A DNA stretch of 64,000 nucleotides from Pagrus major (taxonomy: Eukaryota > Chordata > Actinopteri > Spariformes > Sparidae), in NCBI RefSeq assembly GCF_040436345.1, contig NC_133235.1:17198660-17262659 (forward strand), read 5' to 3'. Shown here in pieces: positions 21,370 to 62,545 of this stretch. Within the stretch, counting starts at the first letter, position 1. Every line of letters starts with the position of its first letter. The notes under the pieces are model-generated. The model worked only from the letters and a program-made list of their open reading frames with translations, ran no database searches and was not told where the DNA came from. The position numbers and the translations under genes are program-made.

Positions 21370-21905
21370 ATCAGTGCTTTAAATTCTTGAGGTTTGTGAA
21401 TAATTTTATACACATTTTCCCCACATAAAATAACATAACATAACATAACATAATACAACATAACACAACAGTATAACTAAACATAACATAACTTAGTACA
21501 ACATGATGTAACTTAACATAACATAACATAACACAACATAACACAACAGTATAACTAAACATAACATAACTTAATACAACATGATGTAACTTAACATAAT
21601 ATAACATAACACAACATAACACAACAGTATAACTAAACATAACATAACTTAATACAACATGATGTAACTTAACATAATATAACATAACATAACTTACTAA
21701 TAAATTGTTTTCAGTGCTTTGAATTCTTAAAGTTTGTGTATAATCTGATACATATTTTCCCCACATAACATGTCATAATGTAACATAACATAATATAAGT
21801 TAACACAACATAACATACTAATGAATACTTTTCAGTGCCTTTAATTCTTGAGGTTTGCAAATAATTTAATACACATTTTTCCCACATAACATAACATATA
21901 AATGT
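21370..21905. repeat. nested tandem array (AACAT units in a 78-bp higher-order repeat)
   Basis: The block is built from TAACATAACA pentamer runs. Within it a longer unit repeats with a period of exactly 78 bases: GTATAACTAAACATAACATA starts at 21471, 21549 and 21627. A second, longer phrase (CAGTGCTTT-AATTCTT-GGTTTG... to TTTTCCCCACATAA) recurs near 21372, 21712 and 21830 and punctuates the array. The 131-aa open frame over it is a repeat artefact. Confidence 0.9.
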
Positions 21906-21999
21906 TATAACTATATAAATATACTTTATTAAAAATGTTCAAGATTCCAGATTTTTTAGGAGAACATCATTATGTTCCTTAGGTGGGAATGGGCTCATA

Positions 22000-35216: not shown

Positions 35217-38200
35217 TCACATGACGATACAGACTGCAGAGTGCCGTTTGTTCAGCAGGCCATCAGACCCTGCTCTCCCTTTGAGTCTGTTGTGAGACTC
35301 TCTGCTATATGTCTGGCTGTAGCCCACAGCTTCCACAGACCTCCTCTTCTGGATGCGGTGTAGCAAAATCCGGTAAGTTCCAGTGACGGGGCTCCTCAAG
35401 TCTACACTGTTGTTCAGAAGCTGGACCTTGTTGATGCCAAGATCCTCCAGCGCTGCCTTCACGTTCAGTTCATCCGAGCTGAGGATGTGGGAAGGCTCGA
35501 CCAGGTGGTGGGGTGTAGGGCTACAAGATGGATAGGCCTGGGGGTATTCAATACCTCTCATCCAGTCACTGTCTATGATCTCTGCCAGAGTGAGGCGATC
35601 CACAGGAACCGGCCTCAGGAGGCCCTTAATGATCTCCTGGCATGATCCAGGTACATAAGGGGGAATTTCATAGGAGCCCTGCAGGATACAATACTTGAGC
35701 CTGCCTGTGTTAGTAGCTTTAAATGGCATGGAGGCAGACACAATGAAGTAAAGCAAGATACCCAGTGCCCAAATATCTGCGTACTGACCAATGTAACCCT
35801 TGTCTTTGAAGAGTTCAGGGGCTGCATAAGGTGGAGAGCCACAGAAGGTATGTAGGACATCGAGGGGGCGGCAGGAAGTGCTGAAACCAAAGTCACCCAC
35901 TTTAATGCAGTAGGTGTTGGTGTAGAAGACGTTCTCAGCCTTCAGGTCCCTGTGCACGATGTTATTATCATGCTGGGAAAAGAGAAAAATGTTTAAGTTT
36001 GTACTTTCATTTGGTTTTCTTACAGGAGCATGAGAAAGTTAAACAGCCCTCCTGCACATTTTATTTAAAGTATGAGAACTTTCAAATGTGAAATCGCAGG
36101 AAAGCTGCATTCTTGAGTGTTACCTTAACCGCTCTAAAGTATTTAAAATTGATGTGCTGGCCTTTAAATATCTCTTTGTTGTCATCTGAGACTTCTGCGG
36201 TCTTACCATGTGTCTGAGTGCAGACAGGACCTGAGAGAACACAAGCTTGCTCTCCAGGTCCGACAGGCGCCCCCTGGTGCTGATTCGGGAGAACAGCTCT
36301 CCTCCGCTGGCATACTCCATCACCAGGTAGAGCCGCTTGAACGTCTCCACCACCTCGTACAGGCGCACTATGTTGGGGTGAGCCAGCTTCTCCATGCAAC
36401 AGATTTCAGAGGGGAAAAGCGCCTGGGATCGCTTGTCCAGACGCACTTTATCCAAGACTTTTACTGCCACTCTCTCTATCAGATGAGACAGATATGAGCA
36501 AAGGCAGTGAGGCAACAAAGAGTAATCCAGTAGTGGAATGTAACTAAGTAAACTTACTCAAATGATGTACTTGAGTACAAAATAGATATATTTATACTTG
36601 ATATTTTCTTATTTTCTCATGCCAATTTATACTTCTACTCCACTGTAATTCAAAGGGAAATGGTGTACTTTCTACTCCACTACATCTATCAGACAGCTTT
36701 ATTTACAAGTTACCTTCCAAATTCAGATTTCTGCACACAAAACATATGAAAATGTACAAGTATACCTGAAATGATCAGTTGAATCATAGAAAATTAATTG
36801 GCAACTATTTTGATGAATCATTTAAGTCATTTTTTCAGCTGCATTTCAAACATTTCATGGTTACAGCTTCAGAAATGTGTGGAATTGTTACTTCTGCTTT
36901 TGATTATTCTTATTTATTTTGAGGTTTATTGGGCAAAACAAACATGAATGTTTCACTTTGGGTAATTCTGACGATACTTCTCACTTCTTTCAGCATGTTT
37001 TCAAAACAAAAAATCTATCAACTAATTGGCAAAATGATCGATGGATAAATCCATAATGAAAACAATCATCTGATGTAGTCCTCTTTTCTGTTATTTAATC
37101 TCCTTATGTTATCAAGCATTGCTTTTCCTTCCTTCCTTTACTTTATGTTTGTTGATCAGATTCATCTCCATGCTCCACACAAGCTGCTGGCTGTAGACAA
37201 TATGGATTAGTGGATGGCTGGTTGATGACATTAGTTATGTCTTCTGACACCTGGACTTACCCAGACTGGACTTGCATTGTGTAATATGACACACCAAGCT
37301 GACTTAAGTGTCTTTTATTAAATTAATAGATATCTGCACATATATTTGGACTAATATTGAGTTATTTGCTCTTGCAGAAAAGCCTCTGAATCTACAACAG
37401 TATGAGCCACAGGGAGATATAATAACAGTTTCCTTGTGAAGATCATGTAGATGAAACCCTGTGAACAACATTATGTTTCTAGGTTGTAAAAACATTATAG
37501 TGATATTGAAAATCATCTACAGAACTCACAGAAAGTGCAGAACTCCTTTTGTACAGCATTGCTCTACAGCATCATACCTACCTCTATTTGCACATCCATT
37601 TGCACTGTTTACTGTTTGCACTGTTTACTGTAGCTACTGTTAATTTTAATTTTATATATTATATATGTGTAATGTATGTTTTGTAGTTTGTATGCTACTG
37701 GACACTTGAATTTTCCTCGGGATAAATACAGTATCTATCTATCTCATATTTATTACATTTTTCATAGCAAATTAGTTTATTTTCATGAAACTTAAAAGGA
37801 AATGCTATTCAAACACTTAATGGAAAAGTATTTACATTTAAGAAGTGACAGATGAGAAGAGCACCAGAGCACTGATCTGAAATCATTATATGACAGTTAT
37901 ATTCAAGCTAACATGACCCACTCATATTGCAGGGGTGGCTCAGTTTAACCTGGAGGAGATATGAGAGGTGTGGCCTGACCAATTTATCATTACTTTCACA
38001 GATGTATTGAAATAACTCATGCACTTCAATTGCATCAGCATTAGACACCAGAGGCCTTTAAACCAACTAAGCTCACATAGTATAATCATGTTAGTTTAAC
38101 ATGGATAGAGTACTTTCTCATTTTGAAGTATCAACGGAAAATGGTGTTAAAAAACAAATGCAACATCTCACCTTTGGTCAGGTCATGTATCCCCAGTCTA

Positions 38201-38599
38201 ACCTGGGAGAAGTTTCCGGAGCCGATCTCTCCTCTCAGCTCGTAAAGTCCCACCCTCCGTCCAAATGTCAGGTCATTCATCACTTTCTCCGAATGGGTCA
38301 GATCATAAAAGGCCTTCTCATACACAGTGCTCTGCTTCATCTCCTTCTCCTCCATCATGTTCTCCTTTGTTTCCACCTTTCCCCCCACGTTTTGGGAAGT
38401 CAGGGTGATGATGTCCTCCTGACGTGGAGACGTCTTCAAGTGAGCCCCTGAGAAGGAGAAAAGAAAAAAGTTGGTGTCTGTCTAAATCATAAAATCCTAA
38501 TTTAAATTCTGTGGTGTCTCTGTACTCACATGTTTTGCCTCTTATGCTCCTCTTTTTCCTCTCTGTGTTGATGGAGTTATTTCTGTTGTTCAAATACAT
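35217..38599 (-). CDS. nim1k: serine/threonine-protein kinase NIM1
   Basis: NIM1 is a member of the AMPK-related kinase family activated by LKB1. Coding exons (transcript order) are 38599-38530, 38447-38172, 36475-36207 and 35972-35217, all in phase, giving 456 aa (human 436). Visible motifs are the Gly-rich loop [11 protein letters not shown], the ATP lysine in VAVKVLDK (Lys121), HRDLKAEN (Asp214), DFG (232-234), the activation loop Thr247 in [14 protein letters not shown] (the LKB1 site by family rule), and [10 protein letters not shown]. After the kinase domain, LEDLGINK-containing sequence and [14 protein letters not shown] follow the NIM1 C-terminal pattern. The protein ends CIVM, a CaaX box. 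The first exon ([18 protein letters not shown]) is the least sure part. A possible non-coding acceptor lies at about 38661. Confidence 0.93.
36525..36760 (+). repeat. interspersed repeat, AAGTACxTTTACTC family, copy 1
   Basis: AGTGGAATGTAACTAAGTAA followed by ACTTACTCAAATGATGTAC, then TTCTACTCCACTACATCTAT and CAGACAGCTTTATTTACAAG, follows a well-known dispersed fish repeat. It lies in the nim1k intron. Related copies are at 41950-42340 and, reversed, at 60640-60755. Confidence 0.6.
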
Positions 38600-41626: not shown

Positions 41627-41634
41627 CATAAATA
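41627..41634 (+). promoter_or_regulatory. pnhd: possible TATA-like box of pinhead
   Basis: CATAAATA lies 69 bases before the start codon, which would put transcription start near 41657-41665 with a very short leader. The match to TATAAA is imperfect. Confidence 0.3.
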
Positions 41635-41702: not shown

Positions 41703-44700
41703 ATGGACTTACTGCAACCATTCCTTCTCCTCCTGTGTGCCCTCCACCTGACCTGTAAGTACTGTTTGCTCTGTTCTAATCTACTGCTGCTGTGATGTGT
41801 AAAGAAGAAGCTCTTTACCAAGTAGACTGACACCAGGCTGCTCAAATATCCTTGTTCATCCACTGTGATATGACTGGATATGGCTGGGAACCAAATATTT
41901 AATAAATATTGAAGTTCTTCATGCAAATTGAATATGAATACTTCCAGAATAGTGGTGGAATGTAGCTAAGTACATTTACTCAAGCACTGTACTTTAGAAG
42001 AATTCAAGGTAACTTCATCTGAGTAATTCCTTTTCATGCTACTTTACTCCTCATGTGGTTCTCACAGGACAGCCACGCTACAAACATATGATTGTCTTAT
42101 AGGATATGATGCAAGCTGTAGATTAAACTACCCATGGGTATATAAAGTAGTTAAAATTAGCTCAACCTTTAACATCTAGAGCTGCAAAATGACACATACG
42201 CATTAATGCAGCAGTAATATTAATCCAAAAAGATCCTATACAATAGTAAAACATTGACAGGCAGCATTTTACTGCATAATAAATACATACTTTTACTTGA
42301 ATGCAGAATTTTTTACTTAAATTGAGTATTTTCACAGTTGTATTAGTTATTTTAATTAGGAAAAAAAGATCTGAAAAATGTCTAGTCATGTCTGATATAC
42401 AAATTCTTTCAAAATAAAGTAACTGAGAGTGACTTTTTTCTTGGAAAGCTATTTCTAAATATTCACATACTGTCTGGGCTTAATAAACTACTAATGAATA
42501 AATCATTTTAATTAACAAATGACCTCAAAGAAAATGGATGCCTGCACTACTGTGTCCCATGTTTAACTTTAAGATATTGTGTTGTTGTGAATCTTAAGCT
42601 GCTCATCTATAATGTTTTAAATCAATCTCAAGGAATTATGTGAAGTAAAATGCTAATAGCGTTCATTAACTGATGCTCTGTTTTGTTTTCTAGTGACCGG
42701 AGTGTTGAGCAAACACATAGATCACAGAAATCTGTTCACACAGAGAATGTGCTGCAAAAGACAGAGCCACTTCGTCTACATTGGACAAGGTAAAGCACCA
42801 AGTTGCACCACATGTTCAGGGTCATCATTCCGTCAATAAATATTTTAATGTCCCTTTAAATGCACATTTGTAATCCACCAACAGAAACCAAAATAGATTA
42901 CCTATGATTTGTCAAAAAGACTGAGAAATGTCAAAGCATAAAAACTATGTCTGTCTGACATCCAGTTGAATTTCTGTCTCCACAGACATCTCTGGGAGTC
43001 CTGTCAGTGTTGATGTGGGGATGTGCAGGTCGCACTGTGGGGGAGCATCCAGGCCCTCACATGAAGCAGGACAGCAGGAATACTCCAAACATTCCTCAAT
43101 GCTGGAATTTCTCAGGAGCAAAAAGGTGAGTGGCGTTTCCCCACATGGCCACAAGGGCGCGCTGTGACTTTATGACTGTCTGAAGAGGTTGCTGAAACTC
43201 CAAAAATTGTCATTACCTCATGATTAAGATTTTACTAAGGCTTCACAGACTTATTTTAGTATCCAAAGCACCATTCATATAGTTTTGCATGGTCTAATAA
43301 ATAAAACTAATCATGACCTACAAGTGTAAAAAAACTTGACTCTCCAAATAATTTGCATCACTTACATTAAAGCACATAAAAAAAACATGTTGTGACATGT
43401 CTGAACCAAGCATTTATCTCTGTCACCTCCTTGCTGAAGATGAGAACACGGGGACCAGCAGCCGCAGAGATCTCGGAGCCGCTGCACCAGCTGCCCTCCT
43501 GCGGGATGAACCACGTGTGCGAGCCGACCGGGATGCGCATTGACCGGGTGCTTCTGTTCGAGGGGCCCCGGGAGGTGGAGGTGATCGAGGAGTGCCACTG
43601 TGAGATCAAGCTGACACAGTGCATCCGTGTGCCCGCACTCAGGACTTACTACTCCGAGACGCCGTATGAGACTGTGGTCGACGTGGGTGGATGCTCCCGG
43701 TCCAAGGGCTCACCAGGTGTGTGTGCTTACCTGCAGCAAGCCTGTTTGCTTCAGGTAGCAAGGACCAAGACAGGAAGAGGGGCTCAGCTGAACATAGAGC
43801 AGCTTATCATATAAAAAAGAACTGAACATCAACCATCAGACTACAAAAACATGCAGTTTATTGGTCAGCCAATTAGCCTGTTTATAAAGAAAAGGGTATT
43901 AATTGAATAAGATGTGTTCATTTTAACTGATGTCAGGACAGTTTCAACAATTCAAGATGATTTTTAACTAGTTTCACTGGAAAAAGGGCCAATTAAGTCG
44001 GCCTGACTCACACAATTAAGATTTTATGCCCAAATAAACTCGATTTTTTGTTTGTTTTAGTGCATTTAAACCTGTAAAACTCATAATGCAGTGTCACTGT
44101 GTTAATGCACTTCTAACACCATACATATTTAGTAATGATATTCACTGGAGGCCGTCAGTCAAAGCAACCCGGTACTTCTAGCGTTGGATTCCCCACAACT
44201 CACTCTACTGATAAAAATAAAGGCCTGATCCTTAGTTTTCAAGCATCTACATATTTTATCAAAATATAGATAACTTTAGAGTTTAATTTAGTGATGGATA
44301 ATCAGTATTTGGTGTGTTTGAACACAGATACACAGCATCAAGAAATAATACAACTTATACATTTGTCCTCAAGTGTATTAAAAGATCCATCTGTCAGTTT
44401 GAGATGGGTGAATATCAGAGGCTGATCCTGTGTTTTACAGTTATATTTGTTTACATCTTCTCTCCCTGCCCTCATTAACCCAACATTTTCTGTTATCAAT
44501 CCTTCACAGAGGGATTCTCCTGTGTCCCCACAAAGTTTGACTCAGCCTTGGTGGAAACCCCCAACAAAGCGGACCTCATCCAGACTGTGGAGACCTGTGA
44601 GCTGAAGGAGAGCTGCTACAGGGTCCCATATGTGGAGTATTACTATGAAATAGTCCACCATGAAGATGGAGTCAAAGAGGAGAGGCTTAAAGTAGGTCCC

Positions 44701-45643
44701 AACCTCTAAACATGTTTTGTTTTTTTGTATTTGTAGTTCTCGTTAATCATAAGTCGTGTTCATCCCCAACAGAAGTGCTTGAATCCAACTTGATATCTAA
44801 ATCCGTCCTTTCAAACTAAGCTTAATTTCCTCTTAGCAAGGCATAATTAGCACTAGAAGAGTGATTCATTTGCAACACCGGTTTCACACCCTCTTTTATA
44901 ATCAAGTTGAGAGGAAACGGGGGTTCTAGTTGGGTGCCAGACAGTAATGAAGTATCCTTATTCATCAGACACATGTGTGGAAGACAGCACTTAATCAAGC
45001 TAATCCGCTGGCCGGTGGCTGGCACCGCACTGCCTGGTGTGAAGGACTCCAGGATGTGCTTATTCATGCACAGCCTGCAACAATACACATGATAGACTGG
45101 CAGATCTGAGTGCAGTCCCAGTTCATCTTTAATCAGGAAAATACAATTAAAACCTGATTTAAACTGTTTGTTGGCCATGTCAGATTTAGACTCATTATTC
45201 TCCCTTAAACTAACGCCATTCACTAAAGTCCCACTTTAAAGCACATGCTACAAAGGTAATCAACAGCCCTCACAATATCACTGAAGTCAAGGTAATTACT
45301 CGTGATTTTAACACCAGACTTTATGTGCTAAATAACATATTAGACGGAAATTTTAAGACAAGATTTGAGCTGAATTCCTGCACAGTTTGTCCCCTGCTCC
45401 AAAGGTGTGAGCGCAGCGCAAACACAAATGGCCCCTGCAGGTGTCAAAACAAAGCAGTTAACATGCTAAACAGCAGCTGGCCCCTGACTCAACTGGGTCA
45501 ATATTTGTGAGCAGCTGTGAGCTGATTGCCCTCTCTCTGTGCTGCTAATTTTCCACAGGAAATAGATGTGGGCAGATGTTTGGGAGGCTGCACTACAGGA
45601 AACCGATGCCTTCTCAGGTACGTATGAACACAGCTGCCACACA

Positions 45644-45674
<31 letters not shown>

Positions 45675-47361
45675 CCTCTGCCCCTCTCATAACAATTGCC
45701 TGTGAGCTCTGACACTTTCTGCACTCAGCATGTGTCAGCACCTTTTAGTTTAAGCCCCTCACCAAATGTCCCTGTTAAACCTTCTGCTTTAGTTTGAGAC
45801 TGGACAGGATTCTAGCAGTGAGATTTCAGTTTATCTTAAATATATGTTAAGAATAAAAGGTTCACACAAAATTAACACTAAAGGTGCTATTTGTAAGAAA
45901 AGTTGATTTTTGAGTCTCATTTGCAACTCGCTTTGGGGTGGCAGCCGACCCGTCCTACAATCCCAAAGGGTCAGTTGTTGATGAGTTGGGAATGAGACTC
46001 TAAAATCAACTTTTCTTACAAATAGCACCTTTTAAAGCTCCTTTATTGTGTAGTTGTACTGCACAAACAAATACAAAAAGTCTTGAATTCACTCAACCGC
46101 TTGTCGTACAGTTTTCCCCATTTATTTCCCTTTAAAGCTCTTACAAGGAAATAAAGTTTGTTAGTGTTGTACCACCAGACTACAAAGCAGCCTCTTTTCT
46201 CAGGCTGTCAGACTCCTTAATTCGTCCTCAGCACTCAGCCATAAAAAAATAGTTTAAATTTATGACCTTTTCTGGCCCGATGACAGGCATTAAGAATTAC
46301 TATAAGACTTCTATAGAAATGTTCCTTTCAGTATGTTAAAGTAGCTTTACGGTTGTAAAAATACATAAATAATCTTTATCATCCAGTTCCAGCACTTCAC
46401 TGAAGCTATATGTTGTTTACACTGAGTGAATTATTCATGTTTTTATGGCCACACCTATTGTACCCTATTTTAGACACAATTTCCCCTAAATTATGCCGGC
46501 CATAATCTGTTTCTTTGGAAACTTTGAGTTTGTTAGTGGAAGGTTAAAGATCCTATTTGTAAATGGTGGTGGCCGGCCCTTCCTACAATCCCAATGCGTC
46601 AGTATTTGATGAGTTGGGAATGAGACTCAAAAATATACTTTTCTTACAAATAGGTCCTTTAAGATGTTAAAACATGGGATTCATTTTACCAGCCCTTTAT
46701 AATACCAAAACCTGCTATACTGCATGGTTGTAATACATTTATATCAGCAGATTCTTGATATATCATAATACCTTCATAAAGAGGATAACTGAGGAATTAT
46801 CCCAGTTGAAACTGACAGCAACAAATGGCAAAATGTCACATGATACAAGAAAAACAACAACAAAAAACATACTAAATTTAAAGCTCCTGTTAGTTAGACA
46901 GTAATACTGACGCTTCTGGGTTGTAGGTTGGGTCGGGTACCATCCAAAAGCCTCAGGAATAAAGCTCAAAAATCAACTATCTCACTTATTATCAGGATCT
47001 CAGGATTTTTATATTAAATTCAAATTTGAACTTTCAACATGTCAGTGGACAAATATCAACAGTAGGCTACATGTTGATACAGTAATTATGGTGTTTAATT
47101 GATATTTCCTGTGACAGATGTACCCTTTGGGCGACACATACATTATATTAAGTAGTCCTTTGATGTAGTGCACAAATTGATTTTAATGTTCCTTCAATTT
47201 TCTGCTGCAGGAGTCCATCTGATCCAGAAATCTGCCACTTATGGGCTGAGAGACAGCCCAGCTCCTGTGTTCCTCAAGGCTACGACAGCCACAGCTTCCT
47301 GAACCAGCATGGACAGATACGCACGGTCCTCTCCATCACTTCCTGCCTCTGCCAAGACTGA
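41703..47361 (+). CDS. pnhd: Pinhead, secreted cysteine-rich developmental antagonist
   Basis: Pinhead is a secreted protein known from Xenopus, zebrafish and Ciona. It counters Admp signalling and shapes mesoderm and dorsoventral patterning. Coding exons are 41703-41754, 42694-42789, 42986-43125, 43440-43716, 44510-44691, 45559-45617 and 47211-47361, all in phase, giving 318 aa. Residues 1-20 are a signal peptide (MDLLQPFLLLLCALHL). The rest is Cys-rich in three related units (about 38-150, 157-218, 224-316), each with a VDVG-x-C or DVGGC block, a C-x-P block and a closing Cys pair, CTCK-like. The acceptor of exon 4 is weak: an alternative in-frame AG would start it at codon Ile107. Same strand as admp, whose start codon is 1.7 kb downstream. 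Identity rests on cysteine pattern plus that linkage. Confidence 0.88.
41950..42340 (+). repeat. interspersed repeat, AAGTACxTTTACTC family, copy 2
   Basis: GTGGTGGAATGTAGCTAAGT and CATTTACTCAAGCACTGTAC open the copy. TTTTACTTGAATGCAG and AAATTGAGTATTTTCACAG close it. It fills part of pinhead intron 1. The middle has diverged or been replaced. Confidence 0.55.
45634..45674. repeat. (CA)n microsatellite in pinhead intron 6
   Basis: About twenty CA units, starting with two imperfect CACG units, lie only about 15-20 bases downstream of the exon 6 donor. The complementary strand gives a spurious run of Cys-Val codons. Confidence 0.95.
45878..46034. mobile_element. palindromic MITE, family A copy 1
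   Basis: AAGGTGCTATTTGTAAGAAA at the left pairs with its inverted copy ending TTACAAATAGCACCTTTTAA at the right. The two arms continue inward for more than 40 bases (AGTTGATTTTTGAGTCTCAT). The right flank keeps TTAA; the left reads CTAA. No coding frame. Two more copies lie at 46544-46662 and 50421-50600. Confidence 0.8.
46544..46662. mobile_element. palindromic MITE, family A copy 2 (deleted left arm)
   Basis: Starts TTAAAGATCCTATTTGTAA and ends TTACAAATAGGTCCTTTAA, with intact TTAA at both ends. The left arm is shortened, while the centre (CTACAATCCCAATGCGTCAG) and right arm match copies 1 and 3. It lies in the same pinhead intron as copy 1, about 500 bases away. Confidence 0.75.
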
Positions 47362-47525
47362 ACACTGCGCCCCCTACTGGAAAAAAAACAACCTCCAATC
47401 GCTTTACAAACCGTGGCTGCAGCCCATTGACGAGCCCACCAAATACTGTGACATTAGTCTCAGAATTTGCTACCTTAAAGTATTATTGTATATTATGTAA
47501 TATATGTAAAAATGATAATTTTGTA

Positions 47526-47531
47526 AATAAA
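47526..47531 (+). terminator. pnhd: pinhead polyadenylation signal
   Basis: AATAAA occurs 165 bases after the pinhead stop codon in an AT-rich run, giving a short 3' UTR ending near 47550. This leaves about 1.4 kb of spacer before the admp TATA box. Confidence 0.6.
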
Positions 47532-47549
47532 TTTAATACAACAAACTGT

Positions 47550-48956
47550 GAGGACTGCTCACTGGACACCTGGTCAACACGTGTCCCAAACTGCAAATAA
47601 AACATTTAAAAAGGTATCCCAGGTACACTTGTAAGAAAATAAACTATAAATGGCACTGAACACATTCTTCCACAGAACAAATATACACAGAATGTGTCCC
47701 TCTTTTAAATTATTACTGAAAACAAGTTCAACAGAAACCGTCTTTTAAACGACCTAAAGACCAACTAATCAAACTAATGGATGAAATCTGAAATAACTTT
47801 GAGTCAGCATCAGGGTCTGAAGTTTCAAAGAGCCAAAATGAAGCTTTGAAGCGCTGGATCACATGAAGAGTCCCATTGAACAAACACACGTGCAGTCAAT
47901 AGCTCTTAAGTTTGATATGAACGTGTGAAACAACACTACTGTTTCTTCTGTCATCTTAAGAGAAGAGGTTTTATGACTTGCTTTCAAGGTGTCACTTAGA
48001 GCAAAAACTTTGATCTCTTAAATGTTTATTACAGTGGGGGACACAAACTTTTACCGGCTTCAATCTGTATTTTGCTTGTGCGTAACGGTGCGTAAAGATC
48101 AAAGTCGCCAAATGGCGCAGTGCGGAGTTTCCAAGGAAGGAACTGAGAAATAAATGAAAAATTGCAAAGCTGAAAAAAATAAAGTGGGTTTGGATTTGAG
48201 CTCAAGGTTAAAATAACAATTAAAATAACAAAAAATATATGTAATGTATGTGTTTATATTTATCCAAAGCCTTGAAAGGTAAACTCAAACTTTCAGTGTA
48301 CAAACTATCATCAGTGTAACATTTTCAGGGAATTCACGCTGTCTGCTGCACATAACCTGAAGAAAGTTGTCTTTTTATGGGGAAAAATGAAAAACGATAC
48401 AGTCCAGCTGGAGTTCTTCCAAAAAAATAAATAAAATAAAAATAAAACTGCAAATTTGGTGATTATCCAGCTGTGACTGGATAAGCGGTTATGTAAATGT
48501 TGCGACGTGTAGACAGCGACACCCGTCTCTTTGTCGAAGTAATTGGTTTCCACCTAAGACACAGTGCCCATTATTCTAAATTAATGGATTCATTTAGGCG
48601 CAGTTGACCTCCCATGGTGATTGCACTTCCTCAGGAGATCAGCTCCAAGTTGATTCTGTTCATATCTCTACATTCTATAAAATGATGAGAAATATACATT
48701 CCACAACGACAGAGCCACTTGTCGATGAGCACCGAGCCTTTTCAAAGGCTGGATTTAGTTTATTTGAGCCTTTATTGCCAGACGTGAAGACAATGGCCCT
48801 GAATAAAATCTCCAATCGGGTTCACACCTTGTTAACACCGCCATTAGTCCCCCTTTACATTCCCTGATTGGTGATTTACATTTGCGACCAAATAGCATCT
48901 TTACTGCTGTTTACCGAGGCTTTGAGGGGCACTGAAGAGTGAAGGGGAGCATTTGA
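47550..48956 (+). other. pinhead-admp spacer, candidate control region
   Basis: There is no gene here. The right third (about 48600-48950) holds two CCAAT boxes (CTCCAATCGG near 48811 and an inverted one, GATTGG, near 48866) and GGTTCACACCTTGTTAACACC near 48819, which resembles a T-box half site followed by a weaker one. In ascidians the enhancer of Admp and transcription of Pinhead interfere in cis, so this spacer is where a control element would be expected. This is inference only. Confidence 0.4.
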
Positions 48957-48963
48957 TATAAAA
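48957..48963 (+). promoter_or_regulatory. admp: admp TATA box
   Basis: GATATAAAAAGTGG stands 109 bases before the admp start codon, which puts the transcription start near 48988. The match to the TATA consensus is excellent. Confidence 0.75.
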
Positions 48964-49065
48964 AGTGGAGCTTCCAGGAGCCTGCAGTCACTCCAACTCC
49001 AAGCTGCTGGACGGTTGTGTGGATCGAGGACACTGAAGCGCCAGGAATCTACTCAAACCTCCGAG

Positions 49066-51294
49066 ATGTTGATGTTTGTGATCAGCTTTGCCTCTCTGCT
49101 GTGCGCCGCCGCTGCACGGCCTTCACTCAACTACCTGGAGAATCACTTCGCCGCCGAGAACGAGTCAGAGGAAGTCCGCTCAGCTGCCATTAAGAGGCTT
49201 CTGGAGGTTTTTGGGATGGAGGACCCCCCTGCTATCCATGGACACAAGCAGCCACCTCAGTACATGCTTGATCTGTACAACACGGTGGCTGATGTGGACG
49301 GTGTGACCAAGGACCCGTATCTTCTGGAGGGGAATACTGTGCGCAGTTTCTTTGACAAATGTAAGATCAGATTTCTGTGCGCACACGTTTGCGTCTGCCT
49401 ACTATAGAATATGAATCATAGTCGCGTTTGTTGGTGTCTAATGATAAATATTTCCATTGCAGTGCGCAGTGAACAGGTGGAGTACAGGTTCAATTTGTCC
49501 ACGGTTGCCAGGACCGAGAAGATCCTCACTGCAGAGCTCCATCTTTTCAAACTGCGACCTCAGGCATCTCTGACATTCAACAGGCATCATTTCTGCCAGG
49601 TATGTACCATTAAATACAATAAACTGGTCAACTTGATGAATTAAAGTGGAATGCATGTCTCCTTTTTCATTCCTCTAACCCTCCGCCTCTTCTGTTTTCT
49701 TTCAGGTGAGTGTTTATCAGCTGCTTGACACCAGCAGGAACAACAACACACAAGAGAAGAAGCTGCTGTCTTCTCGACTCATCCCAGTCCACTCTACTGG
49801 TTGGGAAGTGTTCACCATCACACAAGCGGTAGGTATCCACTTCTCTTTAAGGCCTGTGTTAACTCCTAAAGGTGAAATCTGAACATTACTGCTTGAATTC
49901 TGTGTTTTAATCGACCAATGTGAATTTTCTTCATGAAGGTTCGCTCCTGGATGGTAGATGAAGGCAGTAACCTGGGGCTCCATGTGGTGCTTCGGACCCT
50001 GGGAGGAAGCCAGATGGATATGAAAATGATCCGCTTTGCTTCAGGGCGCAACCACCACCAGAGCAAACAGCCCATGTTGGTCCTGTTCACTGATGACGGC
50101 CGCCGCTCCACTTCTCTTGAAAGCTTAGGTGAGACTTTAATGCCATTTGATTGCACCCAGTGACAGTAGAAATACACAGTTCTGGTATTTATGTGGTCTT
50201 ACTCATGATGAGCAGGGGTGTAGATTAGAATTATGGGACCTAGGGTAGACCCTGGGTCCCCCAACCCTCCTTTATCTCTTCATCACTGTTACTCAATTTG
50301 TACATTTTATACTTTACAATCAATAACAAGATGTCTTTCTTAAGAAAGATCTGACATCTGATGCTGCTCAGCTACCAGAACCATGCTTTCGTCAGCTGTC
50401 TGCTGTTGAAAAAAATGTGTTTAAAGGTGCTATTTGTAAGAAAAGTTGATTTTTTGAGTTTTATTCCCAACTCGTCAAATACTGATTCATTGGGATTGTA
50501 GATCGGGCTGCCGCCATCCCAATGCGTCAGATTTTGACGAGTTGCAAAACCCAAAGCAGTTCACTCAAAAGTCAACTTTTCTTACAAATAGCACTTTTAA
50601 GTCATCTCGCTGCACTGTAACCCTAATTATTGCAGTCCGTCACAGTTAAAACAAAATTTGCTGTGTCATAGTCGTGAGACAGAAAGTTGATTTCAGTTTT
50701 TCAAGAGAAATGTGGGAAGAAAGAAAACAAATATTTAGAAAACAGAAGATCCCAAATGGTTCTTTCACTTGTGCCCCAATTCACCTGCACCACTTAGAAA
50801 AACTCTTACTCATAACACATACTGTATAAGATAATGTGATTTCTAACAAAAATCTCTTTCCTTCACCAGACCCAAACGATACCACTGCCACTTCCAGCCT
50901 CCTCCAGGCCCCCATGTCAGGCCCGTCCTCCCGCAGCGCCCGCTCTGTAGACTACAGCGAGGAGGAAGGTGTGTCTTCGCCCTGCCAGCGCATGCCCCTC
51001 TACGTCGACTTCGAGGAGATCGGCTGGTCGGGATGGATCGTGTCACCCCGGGGCTACAACGCTTACCACTGCAAAGGCTCCTGCCCCTTCCCCCTGGGTC
51101 AGAACATGAGGCCGACTAACCATGCCACCGTCCAGTCCATCATCAACGCCCTGAAGCTGATGAAAGGCATCGAGACGCCGTGCTGCGTGCCCGACAAGCT
51201 CTTCTCCATCAACTTGCTGTACTTTGACGACGATGAGAATGTGGTTCTGAAACAGTATAATGACATGGTGGCTGGAAGCTGTGGCTGCCACTGA
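49066..51294 (+). CDS. admp: anti-dorsalizing morphogenetic protein (BMP-like ligand)
   Basis: ADMP is a TGF-beta superfamily ligand made in the dorsal organizer. It signals through BMP receptors and lets the embryo self-regulate dorsoventral pattern by shuttling with Chordin. Coding exons are 49066-49360, 49463-49599, 49706-49828, 49939-50128 and 50870-51294, all in phase, giving 389 aa. The start is the ATG before LMFVISFASLLCAAAA, a signal peptide. The prodomain contains NYLENHFAA and WEVFTITQAV. A furin site RSAR (270-273) releases a 116-aa mature chain with all seven cysteines: SPC, HCKGSC, PCC and CGCH. WSGWIVSPRGYNAYHCKGSC is diagnostic of the BMP/ADMP clade. Intact. It lies just downstream of pinhead, the conserved order. 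Known to be absent from placental mammals. Confidence 0.96.
50421..50600. mobile_element. palindromic MITE, family A copy 3
   Basis: Starts TTAAAGGTGCTATTTGTAAG and ends TTACAAATAGCACTTTTAA, with TTAA on both sides and long inverted arms (AAAAGTTGATTTTTTGAG). It lies in the last intron of admp. It is the most complete of the three copies in the pinhead-admp locus. Confidence 0.85.
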
Positions 51295-52731: not shown

Positions 52732-55700
52732 TCAGTTGAAAGTTGTCACTCTGTTCTCTGCCACAAAACACTCTTCTGTAGAGCTTGGGCTCTCCAGCTC
52801 GTGTTTGGAGAGATGCTGCACCACACACACACCGATACAGTCACCAAACACATTGGTGGTGGTCCTCAGACGATCTCTATCAACAAACACACAGGAAGTT
52901 CTGAGGTAAGGAACTTGACGTGACCACAACCAAAAACAAAGTTAAGAAGTCTAATGTGTGACAGCAAACAATCCAGCAAAATTGCATGATATGCAAATCT
53001 ACAGCAGATTGTACAATGTTAGCAGCACGTGTGAAGACTCATCTTTTAAATCAGTTTGCTGAAGTCACGTGAACATGACTGGTTGCTCCCAGTATGCTCA
53101 CAAACAAACAGACACACACTTACAGCATCCAGTCAACTGTGATGATGAACGAAATGCTTTCAAGGGGCAGTCCAACTGATGTCAACACTATCGCCATGGT
53201 TACAATGCCGCCCTGTGGGATTCCCGTGGCCCCGATAGCGGCCACTGTGGCTGTGATACTGGAATCACATACAACAAAAAGGGTTTTGTTTATAAATGGG
53301 ACAAAAAAAAATGTAAGCAACCTAAAAATGACACAAATGAATGAAAGTGAATTAAATGAACTATGAAAAACCACTTACCCAGAGACTAATACTTAAAGGT
53401 TCCATATTATGTTCATTTTCAGTTCACACGGTTATTTTGGCTGTCTATTAGAACATTTTTACATGCCTTAATGTCAATAAAACACATTATTTTACTTATA
53501 CTGGTCATTGCTGCAGTACCGCTTGAGGGCCTGTCTCTTTAAGGCATCTTGAAAAGTCCCACTACATATTATTAGTTGTTTCCTTGCCAAGATTTAGTTG
53601 TAAAGATTGATAACACTTTTATGTAGGGGCTGCGACAACCAGCACAAAGTTAGCTTAGTTTAGCAGCCAGGTGAATATGTGATCATTTTTTTATTAGTAT
53701 TATTTTCAGCAGTTGGAACTGATTCTTTGACCTTTAGCATGAAGCTTTAGGGCCCTGTCACACCAAACCGAAACCAAAGAACTATTGGCAAAGAAAGCCA
53801 ACTGTAGCGTTGCCTCACTTCGCCTGTGTCTCAGCCAAAAAGCTGCACATTAACACACAACGACTACAGCTAACGGCCAACTAGCTTGTATGTCCTGCAT
53901 GTGAGGAGGTAACTCTATACCAGGTGACAGTAGTCTGTGTTTGTCATTCATTAAGTGAAACAGTAACGATAAAGCGACGTTTGCCTATCATTTTCACACC
54001 ACTCTCACTCACTCTATAGCAACTTCTAATCAAGCATTTTCGTAAATTTTTCCGATTCTCTTCTCATGCACTGATTTGCTTAGCTGAACAGCCAATCAGA
54101 GTGACATCTCTTGAAGATTCTACTTGCTAAATCAGCTGGAAAGCTTTAAAACGTTTTTTAGATCCTCTACTTTCTGATGTTTATGTAGTTTTTAAAGATG
54201 TAGCATTAGAACATGTGTACAGTCTGCATTTCATCATACCTAATGATGATGATTTGACCCAGATTGAGCTCCATATTATGAACTTGGGCGATGAATATGG
54301 AAGCTACTGCCTCGTAAAGCGCTGTGCCGTCCATGGTCATCGTGGCCCCTACAGGCACCATGAAGCGTGTAATCCGTTTGTCCATGTTTAGATTTCGCTC
54401 CAGACAGCGTAAGGTGATGGGTATGGTCACAGAACTGGAATAAAAAAAATCACATTTATGTAATACAGACTATATTTTCTTAGGCCAGGTCCATCTTTAC
54501 TTAAATGTGTGTACTGTAGCCTGTAAACAACAATGAAAGTGAAACCCACCTGGATGAGGTCCCAAAGGCAGTGGTGAGAGGCTCGAGTAGACCAACCACT
54601 AACTTGAAGGGGTTCTTGCGTGTGAAGATGATATAGATGAGGGGCAGGGTGAAGAAGCAGTGGATTAGTAGGCCAGTGATCACAGTCAGAGAATACATGG
54701 CAAGCTGCAGACCAATAACTCCAATGTCTTTCAGCTGCAAAATCTGTCCTCCAACCAAGAAGACAATCGCCACCGGGGAATACCTGTGGGATTCAGCAAA
54801 GGCAGCATATATTTCAAAGACTAATACATTTTGCTACTGTGTTGCAACACAGGGTCAACATGTTATAATCTACATTTTCATGTAGAAGCTTCTTGTTCTT
54901 ACCAGATGACTATGCTGATAAGATGGATGACGGCTTTATTCAGGCAGTCAACAAAGTTCCTCACAGGTTTTCCCTCATTCTCCATATAGCCCAGGATGAG
55001 GCCAAAGGCGATGCAGAGGACCAATAAACCCAAAATATTGACCCCGTCCGAGGTGCCTGACATCGGAACCGTGTCATCTATAGGGGTCCCAGTAGTGCCG
55101 TTACAGGTCATGATAACAACCAATCATATTAAATAAAATTAATCGGTCACAGTCACATGAAGGGACACAGAAAGTCCTAGTGTACTCACTTGTCTGATTG
55201 ATTTTGGAATAAACAGTTTTATACTGGAAAAAAAAGAAGAACTGTTAACAACTACCATAATGGAAAAAAAAACAAAAAAGGTTTCATGATTGTATCTTAC
55301 ATGATTGTGGCACTATTGCATTGTCAAATGCAGATTAACAAACTGAAAATATTAGCAGCTGACACTGTCAGGGATGCTAAAGAAACCATGACCGCTGCAG
55401 ATCTCACCTGTCTGAAACAGGCAGCCACCAGATTCGGGGGAAACATGTTTCTGCAAAGCAAAAACATTGAGTAAGCTTTGATTGAATGCTGACATGTGAT
55501 TGAGTGGATTGTTCCTTTTTGATAGAGAGACCTGATCAGATCCAGAAAGGCATCCACAGTCTGCACAGCCCTCACATGACCACCAGAGGACGGTGATGTG
55601 TCTCTGGGTGATTTCCCCGGCTGGATAAGAACAACTAGGATGATGCCTGTGGACACAGCCATGATGGTAGTCATTGTGTAATAGCAGAGAGCCCGAAGTC

Positions 55701-57201
55701 CAACTTTCCCATAAGACTTCCTGTCCACAGATGCCATGCCTGTGACAAAAAGAAGGCAACACTTTAACATAACTCCATGTATGTCGAATAGCAATGTCAC
55801 AGTTTGGAGAAATTATATATTTAAAATAAAATATATAAAATTAGTTGTAAAATAATATGCATTAAACTGTTATATATGACAACTCTCTCAAAATAAAAAA
55901 AATACCACTAGAAATAGAAATATATAAAGATGCATGCCTCATAGTAAACTAGGACTACAGTGTAGATAACATTGAGTAATAGGGTTAAATAACAAAAATA
56001 AGCTTTAAGCGACAGTTGCCCCCAAAATTACAAAAACAAATATGTAGTGCTGTTTATCCATCTAGATTGTTTTGGTTTGAGTTGCTGCATTTTGGAGGTA
56101 TGACCTATTTCATGTAGTGGCTAACTAACTAAGCTAACTAAGAAGACAGCTCAGCCTAGGAGGATGCCATTAAGGTTTACATTATGGGCGATATAGTTGT
56201 CAGGTACAGTTTGGTAGAAAGAAAATATGTTCTTCATAAAACCTGTACACAACAAGGTCTGTGGATTATCTCGATCAATTCCCCATCCTAAAACTCTGCA
56301 ACTCACACCACAACAATCAAGATGGATAAATGGCACTAGAGGTAGGAAGAAAGATGTGCCATTAAATCTGCGATGGTTTAGGGCATTTTTCCCAACACAT
56401 CAAACAATGCTAATCGTGTGCACAGTGGCATGTGTGGGATCTAACCTGAAATCACAGAGGTGGTGACGAGAGGAAGCACCAACATCTGTAGCATTTGCAA
56501 AAACATCTCTCCAGGAAAAGTGAAGTATTTTACATCTCTGGCTGTCATCTTACTGGACTGCAGAGCAAAACCCAGGCCAATCCCTCGCAGAAACACAGAC
56601 AAAGGTCAACATATCACTGTGTCTATCAAATGTTAAACACGCTCTGTTTCATGCAGAGAAAATGACAAATGCAGTAAAATCAAAACAAAAAATACTGCAG
56701 GAATAATATCATTATGCTAACAAAAACAGGTGCAGTCTGTCTTCATTATGGCACCTGCAACTCAGTTAGAGTAATCCACTAAATGCAGAAAGAGACATAC
56801 ATGACAGACAGGACAACAGTATCAACCACAGCTTGTTAGGTACATTCCTGACGTACTGACTGCTGGCATGACATGAAACCTAACAACATGAGTTAGCATT
56901 CAAGAGCCATCATTAAAAAATGCTGAGATTAAAAGATTAAAAGACGTACTGTGTCAGAGAAATCAATGAAAACAGCTGACAGTAGTTCATAAAGAGACTT
57001 ACCGATGAAAATAGCAGCTGTCGTGAGAAGAACAAAAGCATTTCTCCTGAGAAAACCTTTAATATTACATTTATTCTGGTGTAAAGACTCCAAACTCGAG
57101 GACTCTGAAGGCTCCTGGCATGTCTCGGTATTGTGGACATCTGCAATGTCCACTGTGCTTAGCTTATACAAACCATTAGAGGTGAGATGCATCTCCTTCA
57201 T
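52732..57201 (-). CDS. excitatory amino acid transporter (SLC1 family)
   Basis: A plasma-membrane transporter that takes up glutamate with sodium and protons and returns potassium. Coding exons (transcript order) are 57201-57003, 56583-56446, 55739-55532, 55450-55408, 55223-55190, 55077-54903, 54783-54550, 54434-54240, 53258-53124 and 52876-52732, all in phase, giving 501 aa. Motifs are [26 protein letters not shown] (TM3), [12 protein letters not shown], the HP1 loop GTSSSSVTIP, TM7 [13 protein letters not shown]2 GATGIPQGG, and TM8 [16 protein letters not shown] with the substrate Arg and Asp. The TM4 loop is short and has one likely glycosylation site (NQT or NDT). TM7 normally reads NMDGT, so Thr377 replaces a sodium-binding Asn. 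The C-terminus with HLSKHELES suggests closeness to EAAT1/EAAT4 or to the fish-only slc1a8/slc1a9 members. The paralogue is not settled. Confidence 0.94.
53393..53760 (+). repeat. fragment of a TTAA-type repeat (TTCCATATTATG family)
   Basis: Starts TTAAAGGTTCCATATTATGT and continues with phrases such as TCTCTTTAAGGCATCTTGAA known from a high-copy fish element. No matching right end was found, so the copy is truncated. It lies in an intron of the SLC1 gene. A second fragment, beginning GGGCCCTGTCACACCAAACC near 53752, may be another element. Confidence 0.45.
55995..56350 (+). repeat. interspersed repeat common in fish genomes
   Basis: ATTACAAAAACAAATATGTA, CATCTAGATTGTTTTGGTTT, GGTCTGTGGATTATCTCGAT and GATGGATAAATGGCACTAGA match segments of a familiar dispersed fish repeat, here rearranged. 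It occupies an intron of the SLC1 gene and contains no exon. Confidence 0.5.
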
Positions 57202-59866: not shown

Positions 59867-62276
59867 ATGGGGAATAAACAGACCATCTTTTCGGCACAGC
59901 AGCTAGACGCCTATCAGGTTGGTGTCAATCCTGTTTCTGTTTGAATGAGACGATTAGCCTCAGTCACTCTAATGGTGCTTCTCTTATCAATACTAGCTAC
60001 CGGCATCTGTAAACAAGATTAACACACTTGTCAGACTAATTTGCATTTTTTTGTTTGATAACAAATTCCAGAGTCGTGTGCTGCACCTCTTCTATTTTTT
60101 TTTTGTCTTTGTCTTTGTCAGTCAATTCTTCAAGATATTAACAGGATGCATTAAGTTAAAGGTGCACTATGTAATTTTGGGGGAGACATTTCAATAAGAT
60201 GAGAGAGATCTTCCTTGACTGATATTTTAATGCCTAAAAAACTAAATAAACAAACTCTTGTTGTTTTCATGACTGAATAAACTGAATAAACACAATTTCA
60301 CACTGTTTTACTGTTTATATGTGGCAGACCCTGCCACCTTTCTTACTTCAGACAGTGTTCTGGGGACCTTATTTTCCTCTGAGAACAGCTGGTTTATTCA
60401 GTTATGGAAAAAATAAATATTTATGAGTTCGTATTATTACCTCATTAATATTGTAAATATTAAAAATCTGAGTTTGAATTTCTTCTCCAAAACTACATTG
60501 TGCTCATATTTTTAATCAAGCATTCAATTCTTACATATTGCACCTTTAACTATAAACCAATAATACAACAACATAATACTGCCATGGATAACTTTGCATA
60601 ATCACTTATTTCTGATATTTATACATTTTGTTGCCAATACATCTGTACTTTTTCTTGAGTAAAATGTTAAATGCATGACTTTTAATCCTACTGGAGTATT
60701 TTTATAGTGCGGTATTGCAATTATTACTTAAGTAAATTCTTCTTCCACCACCGCATCAAACAATTAAGTGCAGGTTCCACTTATTTCTGTTTGAGTGTAA
60801 GCATGTAAGAGAGTCATGTTCCTGGTTGTTTGTATTTATGTATGATGATGTGAATGTTCTGAGAAATATGCTTTACTTTGTAAGTTTTAACAGTGTGCAT
60901 GACTTTGTGATTAACTTTTATCTCAGGCAGTCCTTATACATGTGCTCTAATGTGTTTTTTAAGTGCTATGTCTGGTCTGATGCAGCAGTTCCCCCACCTG
61001 AGACAATAAACTAACCTCAAGCTTAAGCTTGATTTAGCAGCAGCAGACTGTTTGAACAGCTATATTTCAATATTTGTTGCAATAACTCCACTTTCCTGCC
61101 ATGATCTGATTGTATTTGCAGGACTGCACGTATTTTACAAGAAAAGAAATTCTGAGGTGAGCAATGTAACACTGATATCAAAACCGTACCATATTTTAAC
61201 ATATGTTGGAATCACTGGTGTAAAACAATTTCTGTTCTGCACGATAATATACTGTAACTCTAAACTACAGTATCATTACACCTGTGCTACTGTGGGGCTG
61301 GCTACCATTGAGATCACATGGTGTTTAAAATCTTTCTTTTTGAACTTTACTGCACTGAAACTTTCAGCGTTTTCACCGTTGAGCGCAATAGAGAAAAATA
61401 GCTTGCAGCTTAACAGGAGCTCTCTAAATGAACTTTCCTTAACTACCAAATGCCAATATAAAACACACAACTACATAACATAGACGATATCTTGTAATTT
61501 AATAGTAAAGTAAATTTTTTAAACCTTTCTCTAGGCTCTTCTACCGCTATCGGGATTTGGCACCGCAGCTCGTTCCTCTTGACTACACCAACCACCCAGA
61601 TGTGAAGTTACCATATGAGCTGATTGGCAGCATGCCAGAACTGAAGGTAGACCCACTGGTCCACACACACCCGGCAGACCCGCTCTCTCCCTGTGTTCCC
61701 AATCCATAATTAATGGCCAACTAATCGACAGAATTCTTTGAAAGGTTATACGTTACCCGACTCCTTTAAACTTGAAGAATGCTGGTGAGTCTCTCGGGGC
61801 ACACTTGTTGGAAATGAGTCAATTATATGCCTCTTTACACAATGACAGCAAGGTAAGCATGTGTGTGAACATGCTAGTCACTGACATGTCCTGAGAAAGA
61901 GAGAGCGAGGCTGTAAAGATTATACTTTCCCTTGTGGTACTTAATCAGTCTAAATAATATTTTCTGTAGCTCACTTGAATTCTCATTAATAAACAAAAAT
62001 CAGACTAGAACATGAGATATAAACCAAACACAAACACACATTCGTGGAGCAGATGATGAACTGCACTAAATTGTTTACAGAAGTTTCGATCAGACTGTTA
62101 TGGACAAACTGGTGTCTTCTCTGTCCAGGACAACCCGTTTCGTCAGAGGATCGCTGAGGTTTTCTCCGAGGACGGTGAGGGGAACATGACACTGGACGAC
62201 TTCCTGGACATGTTTTCAGTCCTGAGTGAGATGGCTCCGCGTGACCTCAAGGCCTACTACGCTTTCAAAATTTACG
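59867..62276 (+). CDS. cib3: calcium and integrin-binding family member 3 (5' part)
   Basis: CIB3 is a small EF-hand protein. With CIB2 it binds TMC1/2 and supports the mechanotransduction channel of hair cells, notably vestibular ones. Coding exons seen are 59867-59917, 61122-61156, 61535-61646 and 62129-62276, all in phase, giving the first 115 residues plus one base of the next codon. The N-terminus [17 protein letters not shown] is the family start, with an N-myristoylation signal (MGNKQT). [55 protein letters not shown] and [20 protein letters not shown] match CIB3 rather than CIB2. The last visible exon ends at KIY before a GT donor. The calcium-binding EF hands (DFNNDD onward in the family) should lie past the right edge of the window; I did not find them by 64000. 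Exon 2 is only 35 bases. Confidence 0.93.
60156..60549. mobile_element. TTAA-flanked MITE, short copy of the 18772 family
   Basis: Left end TTAAAGGTGCACTATGTAA and right end TTACATATTGCACCTTTAA give a near-perfect 15-base inverted repeat bordered by TTAA. The interior (GTGGCAGACCCTGCCACC, TGTTCTGGGGACCTTATTTT, TAATATTGTAAATATTAAAA) matches the right half of the element at 18772-19728. It sits in cib3 intron 1. Confidence 0.85.
60640..60755 (-). repeat. interspersed repeat, AAGTACxTTTACTC family, copy 3 (reversed)
   Basis: Reading the minus strand gives GGTGGTGGAAGAAGAATTTA and then CTTAAGTAATAATTGC, the family's start, followed by ACTCCAGTAGG and TACTCAAGAAAAAGTACAG. This is a partial copy in cib3 intron 1. 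Confidence 0.5.
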
Positions 62277-62339
62277 GTAAAATATTCAAAGGAATGGTAC
62301 AATTAAAAAAAAAAGTTTTCCTTGTGTTTTATGTAGCTT

Positions 62340-62545
62340 TGTTTCAAGTCAGTTCAAGTCAAGTCAATTTAATTTAGCTTTATAGCGCCATACACAATTA
62401 AAGTTATCTCATTACACTTTTAATTGGAGCAGGTCAGAGACAGAGACCCAACTTTCTCCAATGAGCAAGTACTACAAGAAAAGGCTGCCTTTTAACAGGC
62501 AGAAACATCAGAGCAGACCCAGACTTAAGGTGGGGGGCCATCTGC
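62340..62545 (+). repeat. interspersed repeat of the TTTATAGCGCC type
   Basis: TCAAGTCAAGTCAATTTAAT is followed by CTTTATAGCGCCATACACAA, AAGTTATCTCATTACACTTT, CAGAGACCCAACTTTCTCC and ATGAGCAAGTACTACAAG. This order is familiar from a high-copy fish repeat. A short related piece lies at 26249-26300. It is located in the intron after the last visible cib3 exon. Confidence 0.6.

Follow-up and report, generated by a model that had tools for sequence, protein, structure and literature searches.

An intact, compact pinhead-admp tandem in Pagrus major and how its two genes may be kept apart

Introduction

Does the order of two neighbouring genes itself help to keep their expression apart? The tandem of pinhead (pnhd) and admp raises this question because the Pinhead-Admp order is reported from arthropods through vertebrates, and because in Ciona, in work attributed to Imai and colleagues in 2012, transcription of pinhead is said to disturb the admp enhancer in cis, with the Pinhead protein also reported to antagonise Admp. 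For Xenopus, Itoh and colleagues (2021) reportedly described Pinhead as antagonising Admp rather than acting as a ligand, and in zebrafish the two genes are said to form a feedback pair (Yan and colleagues, 2019). If cis interference survives in fish, gene order itself would help to draw the boundary between back and belly, and the very old pnhd-admp linkage would be explained. We analysed a window of 64,000 nucleotides of the Pagrus major genome that carries the pair. It offers a clean and compact vertebrate copy on which the cis rule could be tested, but no new kind of system.

Gene structures and layout

The stretch under study (41703..51294) runs from the start codon of pnhd through the stop codon of admp. 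Both genes are on the + strand in a head-to-tail order, pnhd being the upstream one, and with exon joins placed at GT-AG borders both joined frames are open.

41703..47361, + strand: pnhd (pinhead) coding sequence, seven exons (41703-41754, 42694-42789, 42986-43125, 43440-43716, 44510-44691, 45559-45617, 47211-47361); ATG at 41703, stop ending at 47361, joined frame of 957 nt encoding 318 aa
47362..49065, no strand: pnhd-admp spacer, 1704 bp from stop to ATG, 38.9% G+C
49066..51294, + strand: admp coding sequence, five exons (49066-49360, 49463-49599, 49706-49828, 49939-50128, 50870-51294); ATG at 49066, stop ending at 51294, open joined frame encoding 389 aa

The locus is an intact, compact and ordinary teleost pnhd-admp tandem. 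The preliminary description had put two complete genes on one strand, with pinhead upstream and 1.7 kb between them, and this holds, the frames being uninterrupted and the spacer 1704 bp long; its proposal of the pair as a useful vertebrate test locus is likewise borne out by the intact genes and compact spacing.

Neighbouring genes and synteny

Three further genes in the window place the pair in its genomic context.

35217..38481, - strand: gene for a NIM1-like protein kinase, to the left of the pair (ORFs 35217-36038, 36120-36557 and 38131-38481)
53120..55812, - strand: gene for an SLC1A glutamate/neutral amino acid transporter, next on the right and convergent with admp
61509..62377, + strand: part of cib3 (calcium and integrin-binding family member 3)

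The kinase ORF at 35217-36038 matches Pfam Pkinase at 3.8e-31, with SIK3 and the MARKs as its nearest PDB chains, and we take the gene to be NIM1K. The SLC1A gene, its pieces joined with X, matches Pfam SDF at 2.5e-60, and the nearest PDB chain to one of the pieces is EAAT1 (4.4e-24). The cib3 product has no Pfam match at 0.1; among PDB chains it matches CIB3 at 4.1e-44, followed by CIB2 at 6.9e-27.

A published account of the euteleost lpl1b region lists admp, pnhd and nim1k-like together with cib3 (PMC12111056), and all four are present in the window too. The account names gene sets without strands or spacing, and our comparison rests on nim1k-like, pnhd, admp and cib3, leaving out lpl1b, ccl25b, tpm4 and rab8a. 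With a nim1k-like kinase and cib3 around the pair, the window fits a euteleost-type locus, and the published set agrees with the NIM1K naming of the left-hand kinase and with the Admp naming. In the same source, such neighbours are said to be absent around lpl1a/lpl1b in Otocephala, which include zebrafish (PMC12111056). The zebrafish feedback pair consists of the same two genes, although zebrafish belongs to Otocephala. The neighbourhood is thus one already published for euteleosts; the pairing, its order and its presence in that group were known before, and Pagrus major adds one further copy.

Farther to the left, ORFs at 6795-8861 on the - strand resemble the terminal part of a gene for Ran-binding protein 3 (weak Ran_BP1 match at 0.0017, below the Pfam cut-off). 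An ORF beside them has a weak Striatin match (0.0022, also below the cut-off), and a long tandem low-complexity stretch at 21371-21938 gives a repetitive ORF when read on the - strand.

Identity of the two products

The downstream product is well marked as a BMP-type TGF-beta ligand. It carries a TGF-beta propeptide (PF00688, 2.5e-32), a single RXXR in the form of RSAR at residue 270, which is a minimal furin site, and a C-terminal TGF-beta domain (PF00019, 4.1e-34) whose mature match begins at about residue 278. The top PDB match is BMP2 (5.1e-37), and the nearest solved structures are BMP2, BMP3 and BMP6 among the best 60 of 68 distinct sequences at 0.001. The wording of the mature domain agrees with what we take to be that of Xenopus ADMP, and the earlier assignment of this gene as admp agrees with its propeptide, convertase site and BMP-type mature domain.

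Pinhead is predicted to be a secreted, cysteine-rich protein, with 21 cysteines in 318 aa and a hydrophobic N-terminus (by eye), encoded directly upstream of admp on the same strand at a distance of 1704 bp; presumably it agrees in these features with Pinhead as described elsewhere. Family models do not add to this picture. The protein matched no Pfam family at E up to 1, a TGF-beta domain included, and the whole protein matched no PDB chain at E up to 10; the third repeat alone returned nothing usable from PDB, and the sole match of the profile built from all three repeats, acetylcholine-binding protein at E 1.2, was set aside as a chance hit. Aligned to the Admp mature domain with hhalign, the repeat profile gave a probability of 0.2, so that no TGF-beta relation was detected. 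With Pfam and PDB silent, the gene is named for its place in the locus and for its presumed likeness to Pinhead elsewhere. The identity proposed in the preliminary description therefore stands in part: it agrees with the euteleost gene set of PMC12111056, but no family model confirms the name.

The cysteines of Pinhead are grouped in three stretches, all of which contain the motif (V/I)DVG-x-C, and exons 3-7 (42986-47361) encode a diverged internal repeat. The best self-match of the protein, with borders left unchosen, scored 88; the 500 shuffles that kept the cysteines in place averaged 41.6 (sd 7.6, maximum 74), and none did as well. When the borders were drawn by eye, units 2 and 3 scored 65 against 27.9, a score that 0 of 2000 shuffles reached; units 1 and 2 were weakly alike (99 of 2000 shuffles as good), and units 1 and 3 were at chance level (1020 of 2000). 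A two-unit repeat in Pinhead is supported by these results, the third unit being recognised by the shared motif only. Cystine knots have the spacing C-x-G-x-C ... C-x-C, and cystine-knot motifs may have been noted in Xenopus pinhead; unit 3 fits what we take to be this spacing and unit 2 does not. No paper joining pinhead with cystine knot and BMP was found in the literature searched, which leaves out most subscription journals.

Searches of contig collections gave pattern stretches and no confirmed match: 4 stretches for 89 aa of Pinhead and 8 for the Admp mature domain in a viral collection, and 26 for the latter in a genome collection. These collections are not built for animals, so the misses are uninformative on conservation.

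Signals in the spacer

A poly(A) cluster and a candidate core promoter stand at either end of the spacer, and a weaker box precedes pnhd.

41627..41634, + strand: TATA-like box CATAAATA, 70 bp before the pnhd ATG; a weak candidate, read from the sequence
47526..47643, + strand: three clustered AATAAA after the pnhd stop, at 47526, 47596 and 47638
48867..48871, + strand: ATTGG (CCAAT in inverted orientation), 90 bp upstream of the admp TATA box
48957..48963, + strand: TATAAAA, putative TATA box of admp; the motif occurs twice in the spacer (0.6 expected)

The distance from poly(A) signal to TATA box was earlier put at about 1.4 kb; measured to the TATAAAA at 48957 it is 1425 bp from the end of the first AATAAA, 1355 bp from the second and 1313 bp from the third. 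With this, all figures of the preliminary description are confirmed. AATAAA occurs 13 times on both strands of the spacer against 2.5 expected, and ATTGG 4 times against 4.3, no more than chance.

Fourteen patterns were scanned in five regions (70 tests, 100 shuffles each). In the spacer there are a single T-box site, TCACACCT, against 0.1 expected, five TCF-type CTTTGWW against 2.2 and one FoxA-type TGTTTAC against 0.45, but with 70 tests no excess of activator motifs is notable, since such sizes are expected by chance. Smad-type patterns in the spacer were not enriched either (GGCGCC 0, GTCTAGAC 0, CAGACA 1 against 1.14 expected); CAGACA occurs 9 times in the pnhd body against 4.1 expected, and a Schnurri-type silencer pattern occurs in none of the five regions. 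As no Smad element stands out, direct repression by BMP/Smad is without sequence support at this locus. No spacer motif among the 14 patterns in the five regions distinguishes cis from trans models, and the spacer motifs neither support nor refute the cis logic. An Rfam search and a tRNA scan returned no matches, and a bacterial promoter and terminator scan of the spacer was set aside as inapplicable to an animal genome.

Regulation in trans or in cis

In layout the Pagrus major pair resembles the Ciona tandem reportedly described by Imai and colleagues in 2012: order, strand and close spacing are alike, and the same-strand arrangement with pnhd upstream is the layout that Ciona-type cis interference would call for. 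The two differ in that cis interference is reported for Ciona, whereas at the present locus it is a hypothesis.

Zebrafish offers a different account of how the two genes are kept apart. Reviews describe zebrafish Pinhead as BMP-like, a ligand whose role overlaps redundantly with that of Admp (PMC8753366, PMC8034876), and in this it differs from the Ciona antagonist. According to such reviews, pinhead is expressed ventrolaterally (PMC8753366, PMC8034876, PMC9504399), the two proteins are redundant in Chordin degradation, with strong dorsalisation in the double mutant only (PMC8753366, PMC8034876, PMC9504399), and the two genes repress each other reciprocally and are both directly repressed by BMP/Smad (PMC8753366, PMC8034876). 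Expression of admp is said to rise in pinhead mutants, as is that of pinhead in admp mutants (PMC8034876). The interpretation in the preliminary description was right in identities, order, strand, spacing and the pair being a known one, but omitted these zebrafish data for feedback in trans (PMC8753366, PMC8034876).

Other accounts bear on activation. In Xenopus tropicalis, Otx1, Vegt and Foxh1 are said to occupy super-enhancers in the vicinity of pnhd as well as of admp (PMC10136858), and both genes are listed as FGF-responsive, in different clusters (PMC2659300); together these point to shared activating inputs. PMC3580780 lists a Ciona ADMP element, Pinhead being absent there, and the main text of PMC8282838 has no occurrence of pinhead or admp. 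Two further papers (PMC4571091, PMC6710290) were rejected as sources because their 'pinhead' is one-eyed pinhead only.

On balance we consider it probable that pnhd and admp keep their expression apart mainly in trans, and that the tandem is perhaps kept by shared activating DNA. By this account admp would be a BMP-type ligand from the dorsal organizer and pnhd a secreted, cysteine-rich regulator of the BMP pathway made ventrolaterally, the domains being those given in the literature. Each product would support BMP/Smad signalling, which, to judge from the papers, would repress both genes; as the products feed the pathway that represses both, loss of one would raise the other. The tight tandem may persist through activating regulatory DNA common to both genes, and read-through from pnhd would make at most a secondary contribution. 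Intact genes, their layout, neighbours that match the euteleost set, the mutual repression and redundancy described in zebrafish and the shared activating inputs in Xenopus speak for this account, and the lack of Smad element enrichment in the spacer and the description of Xenopus Pinhead as an Admp antagonist speak against it. The zebrafish data favour a feedback carried by secreted proteins no less than cis interference. Because the loss of either gene raises the other, read-through from pnhd falls short as the sole explanation, and feedback in trans is therefore ranked first. The weight given to trans over cis is our own: we think the trans account the better reading, and it would be incomplete should transcription running on from pnhd turn out to repress admp.

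It is unlikely, in our estimate, that the locus works by Ciona-like cis interference, in which pnhd transcription across the 1.7-kb spacer would disable an admp enhancer in pnhd or in the spacer, the two genes never being co-active in one nucleus. The shared strand, upstream pnhd and short spacer are as such a mechanism would have them, the rule has reportedly been demonstrated in Ciona, and the T-box, TCF-type and TGTTTAC sites of the spacer could belong to an admp enhancer, but motif excesses of that size are expected by chance across 14 patterns and five regions, and the three clustered AATAAA argue weakly for ordinary 3' end formation after pnhd. The rise of pinhead described for zebrafish admp mutants (PMC8034876) is something that read-through from pnhd cannot explain. 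It is similarly doubtful that euteleosts retain cis repression of admp by pnhd through the spacer on top of BMP feedback in trans, as a rule for sharp boundaries that hangs on gene order and predates the chordate split.

That the linkage is a bystander, with an activating enhancer serving both genes or sitting in the other's introns and mutual repression independent of linkage, we regard as improbable, even though the same factors are said to bind super-enhancers near both Xenopus genes (PMC10136858) and the wider block with nim1k-like and cib3 is conserved too (PMC12111056). Conservation of that block implies that linkage is not special to pnhd and admp. A tandem order held from arthropods to vertebrates would, however, be less easily explained by a passive block.

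Repeats in the introns

A MITE-type short palindromic repeat of about 157-181 bp, with ends TTTAAAGGTGCTATTTG and with TTAA flanking two copies at both ends, is confined, as far as the 64-kb window goes, to pnhd intron 6 and admp intron 4 (blastn, E up to 1e-4).

45879-46035, 46545-46662 and a fragment at 46906-46978: MITE-type copies in pnhd intron 6
50420-50600: MITE-type copy in admp intron 4

The same pnhd intron carries a (CA)n microsatellite at 45649-45672, just past exon 6.
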